DNA of 64,000 bases, taken from Methanococcoides burtonii DSM 6242. GTDB lineage: Archaea; Halobacteriota; Methanosarcinia; Methanosarcinales; Methanosarcinaceae. The DNA is taken from positions 341,579 to 405,578 of the forward strand of contig NC_007955.1 in the NCBI RefSeq assembly GCF_000013725.1. Reading direction: 5' to 3'. Every line of letters begins with the position of its first letter. Positions within the stretch are counted from its first letter, which is position 1. Below, piece after piece: positions 19,317 to 24,472 of the stretch. The translations under genes were made by a program, and so were the position numbers. Under the pieces are notes generated by a model that was not told the DNA's origin, searched no databases, and saw only the letters and a list, made by a program, of their open reading frames with translations.

Positions 19317-20147
19317 TCAGGCATGATCATGTACCCAAAAATTACCATCGATGGTTATCTCTTTTTTCCATATGGGCACTTCTGATTTCACTCGATCCAA
19401 TGTCTCACTAAGAGCTGCGAACAGTTGCTGGCGGTGGCCTGCTGCTATCACGATATATACGATATCTTCAAGTGGCATTATCCTTCCGGCTTTATGATGA
19501 ATGAGAACATCGATGATACCATCCTGTTGCATCATTTCTTCCCTTATCTTTTGGATGCTGGCATCTGCGACCTTATCATATTTCTCGAATTCGAGCATTC
19601 GGGTCTCGTAATCTTCATTATCAGTCCTTACGATACCGATAAAAGTACCAATTCCACCTGCTTTTACAATTTCTGGATTTGATCTGACCTTTTCTATAAG
19701 GGAATTGAGCGTAACGTGGTCCGGTTGTTCCATTAGCATTGAGACGATATTTTCAAGGTTCCAGTCGGCCTTTTCAGGAAGTCTTGCAATAACATTAGAA
19801 ACGTCCTCATCCATTTCCCCGAGAACGACCTTTGGAACCTCACTGTCCTTTGCACCTTCAACGATGGCAAAATCCATTCCTGCATCAGCAAGTTCATCCA
19901 GTGCTTTTTCAAAAGAGGGGTTACGACTTATTGTCACAAGTTCCCTGTCCGTGACGGCAGTTACCATGTCGGCACCGGAATCGAAATGTTTGCCGGTATC
20001 AGTATTCGGATCATCAAGACGATGGTCAAGCATCAGTTTGACCGTTCCCACACGACCAAGTTCTAAAAGCTCCTTTACCATTCGGGTAACGAAGGTCGTT
20101 TTCCCTGTGTTCTTGTAGCCTATGACTGAAATGACTTTCATATTCAT
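19317..20147 (-). CDS. MobB-MoaE fusion for molybdopterin cofactor synthesis
   Basis: The N-terminal half is MobB-like, a GTP-binding adaptor for molybdenum (or tungsten) guanine dinucleotide cofactor, with P-loop GYKNTGKTTF near residue 10. The C-terminal ~140 residues are MoaE, the large subunit of molybdopterin synthase (GTFIGIVRTDNEDYETRMLEFE, HHKAGRIMPLEDIVYIVIAAGHR, PIWKKE with the catalytic Lys). MoaE works with a MoaD carrying a C-terminal GG. The only such protein here is at 16112-16324. The cofactor is needed for formylmethanofuran dehydrogenase. Start ATG 20147 or 20141. Confidence 0.9.
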   Translation of the reverse strand: MNMKVISVIGYKNTGKTTFVTRMVKELLELGRVGTVKLMLDHRLDDPNTDTGKHFDSGADMVTAVTDRELVTISRNPSFEKALDELADAGMDFAIVEGAKDSEVPKVVLGEMDEDVSNVIARLPEKADWNLENIVSMLMEQPDHVTLNSLIEKVRSNPEIVKAGGIGTFIGIVRTDNEDYETRMLEFEKYDKVADASIQKIREEMMQQDGIIDVLIHHKAGRIMPLEDIVYIVIAAGHRQQLFAALSETLDRVKSEVPIWKKEITIDGNFWVHDHA

Positions 20148-20272
20148 TTCTATTCATGACTTATATAAATAAGTACGGTGAAAGGATGAAAAAAGTTTAT
20201 TCTTTCTAAAAATATATATCAGAAACTTAAATATGGATTACTTTATATTTATAAAGAATATTATTGTGTTCT

Positions 20273-20962
20273 ATGTGCGGTTATCAGGTACGAATACATG
20301 ACATGCCATCGGAAGATCGGCCAAGAGAACGCTTGTTGAAACATGGTCCCGGTTTTCTTTCCAATGCAGAACTGCTTTCGGTGATCCTTAGAACAGGGTC
20401 AAAGGATGAGAATGTGGTCAGCATGTCCAGTCGTATTCTCTCGGAATACAATCTGAAACAGTTGAGCCAGGCGAACATAAGCCAGCTCACAAAGATACGT
20501 GGTATCGGTCCTGCTAAAGCTTCCCAGATAGCAGCTCTTTTCGAACTTGCAAGAAAACTGGAGATCTTCACAGATGATCCGAAAAGGAAGATACGCTCGG
20601 CAAACGATGTATATTCTCTGCTCTATCCCAGACATCGTGAATTGAAAAAAGAACATCTTACAGCCCTTTATCTTGATACTAAGAATAATATCATCAAGGA
20701 AGAGGTGATCTCCATTGGCAGCCTGAACGCAAACATCGTGCATCCGCGTGAAGTGTTCAAATCAGCTCTCATGGAATCATCAGCGTCAGTCATACTAACG
20801 CATAATCACCCCTCAGGCGACCCTGCACCAAGCAGGGAGGACATAGCCGTAACGGAAAAGCTCGTTGAAGGCGGCAAGATCCTTGGCATCAGTGTGTTGG
20901 ACCATGTGATTATCGGGGACGGCAGGTATGTCAGTTTGAAAGAGGAAGGCTACATAAGCTGA
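20273..20962 (+). CDS. radC: RadC-family JAB/MPN metalloprotein
   Basis: RadC was named for DNA repair, but its biochemical role is uncertain. The ~229-aa product has the N-terminal helix-hairpin-helix region (LTKIRGIGPAKASQIAAL) and a C-terminal MPN domain with the metal site THNHPSGDPAPSRED. It is common in bacteria and rarer in archaea, so it was probably acquired. I choose ATG 20273 (MCGYQVRIHDMP); a TTG at 20264 also fits. A TATA-like CTTTATATTTATAAAG lies about 25 bp upstream, so the transcript may be nearly leaderless. Confidence 0.88.
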   Translation: MCGYQVRIHDMPSEDRPRERLLKHGPGFLSNAELLSVILRTGSKDENVVSMSSRILSEYNLKQLSQANISQLTKIRGIGPAKASQIAALFELARKLEIFTDDPKRKIRSANDVYSLLYPRHRELKKEHLTALYLDTKNNIIKEEVISIGSLNANIVHPREVFKSALMESSASVILTHNHPSGDPAPSREDIAVTEKLVEGGKILGISVLDHVIIGDGRYVSLKEEGYIS

Positions 20963-20994
20963 TGGGTGAAATTCTGTATTGAAATCACTCATTA

Positions 20995-21180
20995 TCACAA
21001 AGCTATTTTCTTCTGTATAAATGGACTGAGATAAGTGAGTACATTATCCAGTGCGTTAATCTCTTCTGTGACCTCGTTTGGATCAGTGTGGATGACCATC
21101 AAGACTGTATCAAAGTTATACTGGGTAGAACTGATAGCTGCAATATATGGTGCCTGTGGAATGGATATATCTTTAAAGAT
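20995..21180 (-). pseudogene. 3' fragment of an unrecognised gene
   Basis: The last ~60 codons of a minus-strand frame look like real protein (PQAPYIAAISSTQYNFDTVL, then HTDPNEVTEEINALDNVL, LSPFIQKK). Upstream the frame runs into the terminase remnant near 21184, so the 5' part is gone. I do not recognise the family. Confidence 0.4.
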
Positions 21181-21624
21181 CATCATGTATCGAAGATTCC
21201 AGATATGGTTCGCATCGTTGTTGGTGTGGATCCCGCAGTGACCTAAAAGGATGGCTCGGATGATACTGGCATCGTAGTTGCTGGAATTGACAAGAAGAAA
21301 CATGGGTATGTCCTGGGGGATTACACTTGTCACACTACGCCACGCAAATGGGCAGCTGAAGCAATTGCAGCGTTTGAGAAGCATCAGGGTGACCGTGTCA
21401 TTGGCGAAGTGAACAATGGTGGTGATCTTGTAGAAGCGAACTTGAGATCAGTAGATCCATCAATTCCCTACAAGGCTGTCAGAGCAAGCCGAGGGAAGCA
21501 GACCAGAGCTGAACCGATATCGTCTTACTATGAGCAGGGGCGTATCCATCATGTGGGTACATTCCCGGCTCTTGAGGATCAGATGTGTGATTGGATTCCG
21601 GGGGAAGGAAGATCTCCTGACCGA

Positions 21625-22578
21625 TGTCTAGCAGAAGGGACCATGGTCATGACAGATGTTGGAGGTATCCCAATTGAGAATATCCGAGAGGGTATGTTTG
21701 TTTTGACTCGTGAGGGATACAAGCGGGTACTTGCTGCTGGACAGACGAGTTCGTCATCCGATACAATGACTGTTCATTTTTCGAACGGTGTAACGTTGAA
21801 CGGTACCGGAAACCATCCTGTGTATGTGGAGGGGAAAGGGTTTACTAATATAGATGCATTAGTATGGTATGATAGGGTGATAACATGCGAAGAGAACTTG
21901 TCGAATATAAAGGAATCACGTTTGCAAGATATCCGACGTCTAAAAGCATATCCCGCAGCCGATACTTCTATCCGTTCATCAAAGAAAAGAACGGAACGAA
22001 AATCCAAGCTCTTCACCAAGAGATATGGAAAGATGCGAACGGGGAGATACCCGATGGGTACGATATCCACCACAGAGACGGCAACCCTTCCAACAATTAG
22101 ATTGATAACCTCGAATGTCTATCGAAAAAGGAACACGCTGAGCGCCACAACGACGGATGTAGCGACACACAGAGGGAACACCTCGACAAAGTACGCCCAC
22201 TTACGAAGGAGTGGCATGCTTCGGGCGAGGGTCATGAATGGCATGTTGAGCATGGAAAGCGGACATGGAAAACTCGTGACATCAAGACAAGGGTATGTGA
22301 GCAATGTGGGCGCGAATATGAAACAAAGTGCGCTAGGGATGATATCAGATTCTGTTCTCGCAAATGTATTAACCAATACAATGAGCAGACCAAAAAATAT
22401 TATGAGAAGCGAATCTGCCCGGTATGTGGATCAGAGTTCGAAGTCAAGAAGTCAAAAAAGCAGGCAACATGCTCACGTAAGTGTGCTTGGGTCATACGGC
22501 GCCGGCAAAAGGAAAGTGTACAATCTGACAGTTGAAGAGTGTAACGAGTATTTTGCGAACGGGATCTTAGTCCACAAC
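21625..22578 (+). other. Intein (318 codons) in the terminase remnant
   Basis: The N-terminal splicing block begins with Cys (CLAEGTMVMTDVGGIPIENI) and contains the block B motif NGTGNHPVYVEGKGF. The C-terminal blocks are KVYNLTVEECNEYFANG and the terminal ILVHN before the +1 Cys. All splicing residues (Cys1, TxxH-type His, terminal HN, Cys+1) are present. Between residues ~88 and ~290 the same frame gives a Ser/Thr/Arg-rich sequence without endonuclease motifs. That is because the stretch encodes an HNH protein in another frame. Confidence 0.85.
21885..22535 (+). CDS. HNH endonuclease nested out of frame inside the intein, with an in-frame TAG
   Basis: In the frame one base before the intein frame, ATG 21885 follows AGGGTGAT and opens 216 codons to TGA 22533. 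The first 71 codons end in the HNH motif GYDIHHRDGNPSNN. Codon 72 is TAG (22098-22100), followed directly by IDNLECLSKKEHAERHN, the normal continuation of the motif. The rest has two zinc-finger-like units (CEQCGREYETKC, CSRKC; CPVCGSEFEV, CSRKC). Typical HNH motifs have one residue at the TAG position. In pyrrolysine-decoding methanogens TAG may be read as pyrrolysine. Otherwise this is one nonsense mutation. Confidence 0.75.
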
Positions 22579-22756
22579 TGCGATGCACTTGTGTGGGCCT
22601 TGACGGAATTACTTCCTCCGGAGAAGCCTGGGAAACCTTTGCCTCGGTTTAGTGGGGGATTTGGTGTGAGTGGTGGGTTAAGAGTCTGATAAGTTAAGCT
22701 GCCTGTTTGTTTTGGTCTATATAAATTATATTTTCCCAATGAACATAAGGATCAAA

Positions 22757-23302
22757 CTACTCCACTTTCACCAAGTTATATTTGTTACCCATAGTCCAAG
22801 GTGTATTTTCAAAATCAAATATAGGATACCGAGTAATGTAAGGATAATGGGTACTATCTTCACCATCGTTTGGATTAACATGGAAATCCCGATAGAATTC
22901 AAGTGTCTCTACTTCATCATTTTTGACATCCAGATGCCACACAGTTGTCTGCAATGTATAGTTCCCAGAACGATTAAGCTTCATAGATATCTTATTGTTT
23001 AGTGTGACAGCTTCACCTGAAAGAACGGTTTTTGTCTCAAGGCCACCTCTCCGATCGGAAACAATCTCAAGACTATCACAATTGATAATTTGATGAGTTG
23101 GTGGGAATAACGTAGCCGGGAAATCAGAACGTTCAGTATTATAAACGGTGATTTCTAGTTGCAAATTCAAGTATTCAGTATTACCAACTGATTCATGCCC
23201 GAGTTCATATCCAACATTTGAAATTTTTAATTCTGGATCTGTTGCTGTTTCTACCGTAGTTCCGATTATCCATACTTCCGAATGACTTGATCAATTTGTC
23301 AT
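22757..23302 (-). pseudogene. Hypothetical protein gene with TGA at codon 4
   Basis: The minus-strand frame from ATG 23302 reads MTN, then TGA, then an open stretch of 177 codons beginning SSHSEVWIIGTTVETATDPE. The body is beta-rich with CARDB-like character (NLQLEITVYNTE, SGEAVTLNNKISMKLNRSGN). No signal peptide is visible. An internal TTG at 23170 could start a 137-aa product, but the similarity in style continues upstream, so the gene is probably broken. Function unknown. Confidence 0.45.
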
Positions 23303-23462
23303 ATTTTACAATCCTTCATTTTTAGAAATCATTATAAATCTCTTGTAAATACCTGATTTTTCCAAACCACTCCATGACTTTTACTTTTATTTTTCACAAA
23401 GTCATTTGATTTTACATAGACAAAGCTAATCGATTTACATTTTTTTGATAACCAAGTTGAAA

Positions 23463-24232
23463 TTATCGTTTTCTTAATCGCGTGCGTAGCACTCGATTTC
23501 TTTCACAATTGTATGTTTTTAACTTATTCAAAAATGTTTGAACTGGAATTACACATAATGATTTATATCCATCTGAAAGAATCGTAGAAATATCTTCACT
23601 GATAGTTGATTTAAACTCACATGCTGTAATTTTCAGAACCGATTTTAACATGTTTAAAATATTGTACAATACACATTGAATTACAAAAAACAGTGTTCTT
23701 GCTACAGGTGATACTGAACATGTTCTGATCTTGAACTCGTTTTTCACTCTGTATCCGGTTTCTATGTTCCACCTTTTCTTATATTCCTTCGGAATGCTAT
23801 TGATGAATTCTTCACATGAGGAGGTATTTTTATTCGTTGCAAATAGAGAATATCCTTTATCTTTGTTGTAGAGTGCAACAATATTAAATGTAGGCCCTCC
23901 CTTTTGTAGATCTCAAAACATATATTCCTAAATTCATGAAGAATATGTTCAGAGCTATTATGGTTGATGTAGTTGAAAATAGTGTCAGAGGAGAGTATTT
24001 TCAAATTTGAATCCTTTGATTTTAATGCATTACTTGCTGATTCAAGAGAATTAGCAGAGGATGTTGCGGCATGCAACAATACTGTTATAACATCTTGATA
24101 ATCAAATTTCGCACTGAATGGCAAAGTTATTATACTATTTTTACTAAACAGTTCTGATGATACGGCCAGTAAACTGGCAGTGTTTTCAAAATTCATGGAG
24201 CTATTGTTGTGGTGCACACACAACAATTCCAT
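23463..24232 (-). pseudogene. Internally deleted, frameshifted DDE transposase
   Basis: The 5' frame (24232-23900) holds a transposase N-terminus (SANSLESASNALKSKDSN, SSDTIFNYINHNS). After KR near 23900 the frame must change by one base to continue as GGPTFNIVALYNKDKGYSLF, and then to the C-terminal KKRWNIETGYRVKNEFKIRT and FFVIQCVLYNILNMLK. The C-terminal IETxYR pattern is that of ISH3/IS4-like enzymes. At about 255 residues it lacks roughly the central third with the first catalytic Asp. It cannot be active. Confidence 0.6.
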
Positions 24233-24472
24233 GTTTTTGTAATAACTTTTCTTGAGAATTATGACTGAAAAATATAAAAGAGGCTTAGTTAATCGGAACT
24301 ATGGTCATTCGGAACTACTGCATGTAATAGAGAGTACCTTTAGAAAATCCCATCTTCTTCCATTCAGAATAAGGCATATCAATGATTTTTTCCTTAGTAG
24401 ATTTTCAGTAATTTATTGCAATCGCTTGCTGGCCGAAGATCCAATATTTTGATCAACACTTATTTTGCTCAC

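Follow-up and report, generated by a model that had tools for sequence, protein, structure and literature searches.

An HNH endonuclease gene nested out of frame in a terminase intein of Methanococcoides burtonii, and its relatives among tailed viruses

The window analysed here is a stretch of 64,000 nucleotides from the genome of Methanococcoides burtonii DSM 6242, which is a single contig of 2,575,032 bases. Frame 1 of its forward strand is open from 21247 to 22689 (480 codons) and reads as the end of the nuclease domain of a phage terminase large subunit (TerL) interrupted by an intein, with intein blocks at either end. The intein, at 21625-22578, is of the class 1 type, spans 318 codons within the TerL fragment and is matched by the Pfam families Hint_2 and Intein_splicing and by the NCBIfam model intein_Cterm, while a different frame across it codes for an HNH endonuclease. 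The features are as follows (all on the + strand).

21193..21624, +: N-extein, what is left of the TerL nuclease (RNase H-like) domain, the ATPase half being absent (Terminase_6C match)
21244..21246, +: TAA stop within the TerL remnant, in the otherwise recognisable stretch 'VDPAVT*KDGSDDTG'; Ser in both sister copies
21625..21888, +: N-terminal Hint half of the intein, 88 codons, with Cys1, block A and block B TGNH (Hint_2/Intein_splicing; AlphaFold pLDDT ~97 for residues 1-88)
21874..21881, +: AGGGTGAT, the HNH ribosome-binding site, inside intein codons (pairs with 6 bases of the 16S 3' end)
21885..22535, +: HNH endonuclease with two zinc-finger-like Cys sets, at offset +2 relative to the intein frame (HNH_3 E=2.9e-17; PHROG 15471 E=4e-39)
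21889..22467, +: intein frame across the HNH (the shadow), 193 codons rich in Ser, Thr and Arg, without stops and predicted to be disordered (pLDDT ~45)
22098..22100, +: in-frame TAG of the HNH frame, a candidate pyrrolysine codon (TAG rarity and PylS)
22468..22578, +: C-terminal Hint half of the intein, 37 codons, with a His-Asn end (intein_Cterm; pLDDT ~97); contains the HNH stop TGA at 22533-22535
22579..22689, +: C-extein of the TerL remnant, with the +1 Cys codon at 22579-22581 (the empty alleles of both sisters have Ile or Val)

Upstream, at 19317-20147, lies the gene for a MobB-MoaE fusion protein, followed by radC, and downstream of the TerL remnant, at 22757-24298, are several minus-strand ORFs without a Pfam match, which are perhaps further decayed mobile DNA.

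A preliminary description of this locus had placed the splicing blocks in one stop-free frame of 318 codons, and that is what the open frame contains. The residues of a class 1 intein are all present (C1, T61-G-N-H64, H317-N318 and C+1), and Cys1, H64 and N318 are invariant across the intein family surveyed below. AlphaFold builds from residues 1-88 and 282-318 a confident Hint fold of 125 residues (pLDDT ~97), with the shadow at ~45. The Foldseek matches to this model have the Hint fold (inteins, hedgehog and BIL domains); the Mtu RecA intein (TMt 0.79) and gp41-1 (0.61) head them, and DnaB and NrdJ-1 are also present. Both gp41-1 and NrdJ-1, which are among the best fold matches, are inteins of fractured-gene origin, and the 88- and 37-residue halves found in the window equal those of gp41-1. 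The window copy itself does not have the fractured-gene or split-intein layout, its frame being continuous. By its residues, its Hint fold and its exact in-frame insertion into a conserved motif of the host protein, of which intein-free alleles exist, it is classed as a class 1 intein, for which splicing is predicted.

The HNH gene occupies frame 3, from the ATG at 21885 to the TGA at 22533-22535, and retains all the invariant residues of its family (H62, H63, N70, N71, N75, H84 and H88) together with the zinc-site cysteines; on this motif and its DNA-binding zinc sites the predicted product is an HNH homing endonuclease. Within the AGGGTGAT site, GGTGAT pairs with the 3' end of the organism's own 16S rRNA (GGATCACCTCC), which is the same in all three rRNA operons. 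The other frame, the separate ATG and the AGGGTGAT site had been rightly recognised at 21885-22535, but the frame is not one standard ORF: it is interrupted by the TAG at 22098-22100, the sole stop in 216 codons, which falls at the variable residue 72, between N71 and I73.

The host gene is indeed a terminase bearing an intein, as had been described; overlooked were its reduction to a headless remnant and the TAA at 21244. Among the relatives of the N-extein, an intein-free sister fragment is 91% identical and TerL proteins of other genera, mostly open frames of 435-452 aa, are 70-73% identical. The sister genome G097 matches 19761-22682 at ~90% identity, minus exactly the 954 bases of 21625-22578, and its TerL remnant is likewise truncated and intein-free; a second sister, G092, lacks the same 954-bp stretch at 77% identity, and its homology to the TerL remnant begins at 21193. 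Since the window and G097 have the truncated start in common, TerL had probably been reduced to a remnant before the two lineages parted. The direction of change that we infer is a gain of the intein in the window lineage, since a gain is one step whereas exact loss in several sisters would take more; most simply, the unit was a late arrival in a chromosomal TerL remnant. When flanking identity to G097 was examined for co-conversion, it was 0.80-0.90 near the insertion against ~0.90 further off, a slight drop. Among relatives at large, the distribution of occupied and empty TerL sites is patchy.

Relatives of the HNH were gathered from isolated phages and from viral and genome contigs, and profiles of the HNH and of each Hint half were used to score them; a single protein query of the genome contigs gave no match, while an alignment query gave 46 loci. 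Ninety loci keep the two Hint halves together in a single open frame, and at every one of them the HNH lies at offset +2; the count is a lower bound and comes from isolates, MAGs and viral contigs whose loci are related and so not independent. Their sources include Methanomethylophilaceae, Frankia, Bacteroides, Nitrospiraceae, Simkania and Candidatus Berkelbacteria, as well as viruses of Acinetobacter and Tetrasphaera. All exteins examined match TerL families (PHROGs or Pfam), and the HNH stop falls within or beside the C-terminal Hint block in nearly all nested loci. In the phages Highwayman, TJE1 (of Tetrasphaera; HQ225832) and LS06-2018-MD07 the nested unit is annotated only as TerL. The proposal that an HNH gene had invaded a mini-intein is upheld as to the out-of-frame nesting, but what is seen is an old and widespread architecture, and no recent invasion.

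Several single loci in this survey depart from the common form. At L113:1542-3608, in a Planctomycetota MAG, a TerL intein holds a nested HNH at offset +1 rather than +2, which may be a second, independent nesting. The TerL genes of L044, L067, L086 and L101 carry two inteins each, and in L067 an in-frame LAGLIDADG intein lies upstream of the nested HNH intein. PHROG 35162, of 'unknown function', matches the shadow and IntC region in L038, L044, L067, L072 and window P0002, and probably records translations of the shadow frame.

A single genome in which two sequencing or assembly frameshifts had disguised an ordinary HNH intein of one continuous frame would look just like the window, but the offset is common to 90 loci from isolates, MAGs and viral contigs, and the survey refutes this reading, whose probability is negligible. 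Relatives with the HNH always fused in frame were also looked for: among the surveyed loci none has the HNH in frame with the Hint domain, and in none do the HNH and Hint matches share one frame and ORF as in a canonical bifunctional intein. An in-frame ancestor with two compensating frameshifts is rejected on these surveyed loci, and neither a recent pair of such changes nor a resequencing error is needed to account for the window.

The intein frame is open well beyond what the HNH sequence would allow by chance. Under a recoding null in which each HNH protein was held fixed and its codons redrawn from the locus's own usage, 369 intein-frame stops were expected in the 90 nested loci and none was observed, a zero that is partly by construction as an open common frame defined the nested class; the fair comparison is between ~90 open and six to eight split loci (in six both halves were detected, while L009 and L104 were assigned by eye), with ~3.4 of 90 expected to be open by chance (the sum of the per-locus zero-stop probabilities). 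The third frame of the nested loci has 1484 stops against 1449 expected, and 13 HNH loci without a detected Hint domain have 78 against 72. Among these Hint-less loci, L061 has an open frame and is perhaps a decayed relative. In the window alone, 5.5 stops are expected from the genome's codon usage (P(0)=0.0009), and permuting the HNH's synonymous codons among themselves 20,000 times never gave a stop-free frame. Chance openness of the intein frame is rejected by both the recoding null and these permutations. The earlier account of a stop-free, Ser/Thr/Arg-rich shadow is thereby confirmed over 193 codons, and selection to keep the splicing frame open, which it had proposed, finds strong support across the family.

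Between related copies, uncorrected N/S counts are mostly 0.2-0.5 in the HNH frame and ~1 in the shadow, the HNH frame being under purifying selection while the shadow evolves freely. A shadow N/S of ~1 would also be expected were the insertion inert, with the HNH its only active part and the intein frame left open by composition or chance, and out-of-frame HNH insertions of the ShiLan type do occur without an intein (PMC11855218). Against this stand the stops that are missing from the nested loci whereas Hint-less loci match expectation, the Hint fold at pLDDT ~97, and the retention of the catalytic Cys1, TxxH and His-Asn in the window, with Cys1, H64 and N318 invariant in the family. Moreover, an A directly after the ATG of an HNH Met codon occurs in 0 of 111 cases in nested loci against 12 of 27 in free ones, so that this succession is avoided at the protein level. 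We regard an inert insertion as quite improbable. In Mantel tests, HNH distances correlate more closely with those of the TerL extein (r=0.55) than with those of the Hint domain (r=0.39), which would fit a specificity of the HNH for TerL DNA.

The HNH appears to have its own translation start. Its start codon is ATG in 73 of 90 loci, against 29 and 49 in the other frames, and lies a median of 12 nt after the upstream stop of the same frame; Shine-Dalgarno (SD) matches of at least 5 bases precede 26 of 88 HNH starts against ~2.6 in matched controls, and are absent at 16 of the 88. Alternatively, programmed -1 frameshifting out of the TerL-IntN frame might produce the HNH as a fusion, with no internal initiation, a mechanism with which the offset agrees in all copies, as it equals the -1 frame. 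A slippery heptamer is found near the junction in just one of the 90 loci, and this, along with the closeness of the upstream stop and the enrichment of ATG and SD matches at the start, makes frameshifting still a little less probable than an inert insertion.

Eight loci (L009, L063, L084, L104, L106, L107, L108 and L111) present the arrangement of fractured genes, wherein the IntN frame ends before or within the HNH and IntC-TerL forms a separate ORF, sometimes with its own Met. These are candidate natural split inteins with the HNH between the halves. Free-standing HNH relatives adjoin TerL in phages such as PAE1. In the HNH tree the nested, split and free forms are interleaved with weak support, such that the states cannot be ordered. 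At L004:2891-3712 and L061:2627-3712 the HNH follows an intact TerL and is itself followed by a second copy of the TerL C-terminus in another frame, a region in which no Hint domain was detected.

Taken together, the unit is in all likelihood an ancient and widespread two-product homing unit of tailed viruses, made up of a mini-intein and an out-of-frame HNH gene; that at least 90 related copies, from viruses of both bacteria and archaea, keep both frames open argues against an accident and for a mobile gene conserved as two genes in one. We infer splicing, HNH cleavage, homing and independent translation for it. The 125-residue mini-intein lies in the TerL nuclease motif, and the HNH gene of ~200 codons at the intein's endonuclease position, in frame +2 and with its own start. 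Reading in the TerL frame would yield TerL-IntN, the disordered shadow and IntC-TerL, from which splicing would release active TerL while the shadow is discarded. Initiation at the internal start would yield the HNH protein, which would cleave TerL genes that lack the intein, whereupon repair would copy in the entire 954-bp unit. Selection for splicing would hold the shadow stop-free, whereas selection for homing would preserve the HNH sequence.

The window copy calls for separate consideration, its TAG being an unusual stop in this genome. In the window and 20 further stretches (L164-L183 of G000), TAG ends 5 of 267 long ORFs, three of which have long open extensions, despite making up ~19% of stop trinucleotides in the same stretches; the genome also encodes PylS. 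A parallel is found in G086, of another genus of the family and likewise encoding PylS, where a methanogen-associated element (L155, reverse complement) has an otherwise long TerL with three internal stops, all TAG (1150, 2268 and 2275), one each in TerL, HNH and shadow, which suggests pyrrolysine use in viral genes. As TAG rarely ends genes, PylS is present and the G086 stops are all TAG, pyrrolysine read-through is plausible in the archaeal copies, and the window copy can make a full-length HNH only if its TAG is so read. Its host TerL is already dead, such that the predicted spliced product would be a dead TerL fragment. The earlier view of a two-product unit is supported by the independent starts with enriched SD matches, but with the qualification that the window copy needs TAG read-through and has a dead TerL. 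One might then see the window copy as a plain pseudogene pair, its TAG and TAA both due to decay and its openness inherited from an active viral ancestor; the missing ATPase half, the TAA at 21244 and the truncated, intein-free G097 remnant all point this way. On the other side, every invariant HNH residue is intact, and the only stop in 216 codons is of a kind that rarely ends genes in this PylS-bearing genome and recurs as all three internal stops of G086. We give the pseudogene pair somewhat less than an even chance; as it concerns the copy and not the family, it is compatible with a two-product homing unit.

Several known systems resemble the unit in part. Dassa et al. in 2009 (cited in PMC3229294) reportedly described fractured genes whose split-intein halves lie on either side of a free-standing endonuclease. 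As in those, the mini-intein halves are here parted by a separately translated endonuclease gene, but IntN and IntC share one open frame, and the fractured form is a minority of the family. In canonical HNH inteins, e.g., that of cyanobacterial GyrB, the HNH shares the intein's frame as one of its domains; the window-type unit shares with them the Hint domain and an HNH at the usual endonuclease position but has the HNH out of frame. A parallel might also be struck with group I introns bearing HNH ORFs (I-PfoP3I, PMC3428280), which are likewise splicing elements with a separately translated HNH, except that splicing there is of RNA, whereas here a protein splicing domain lies in a stop-free host frame. 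The ShiLan insertion likewise has a zinc-finger HNH out of frame in an insertion that leaves the host frame open, and a disjunct distribution, but it has no intein splicing blocks, is thought to stay in the protein and lies in a methylase (PMC11855218) rather than TerL; the window HNH, in contrast, is flanked by a complete Hint domain predicted to remove the shadow. The ShiLan paper cites a preprint on non-canonical actinophage inteins (bioRxiv 10.1101/2025.01.02.630785) and Gorbalenya 1998 (PMC11855218). A literature search whose coverage did not extend to that preprint, which possibly overlaps, turned up no account of a TerL intein with an HNH in another frame. The closest published precedents are ShiLan-type insertions and fractured-gene split inteins, and the out-of-frame HNH TerL intein is a new variant in relation to both.

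More broadly, though rather tentatively, out-of-frame nesting might be a general and ancient intein strategy of viruses and a route to fractured-gene split inteins, joined in the viruses of methanogens by the use of TAG for pyrrolysine. As the nested gene has its own start, a stop arising in the shadow would leave a natural split intein of the gp41-1 type, broken at the former place of the nested gene. Textbook inteins occupy a single frame, and a two-frame family of at least 90 members would separate splicing from homing. The nesting would also explain how the endonuclease came to be missed in annotation, with three sequenced phages listing TerL alone, and the family offers a natural, repeated test of selection on overlapping genes. 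It may also provide a tangible route by which split inteins, from which widely used tools for protein ligation derive, could arise from contiguous ones.
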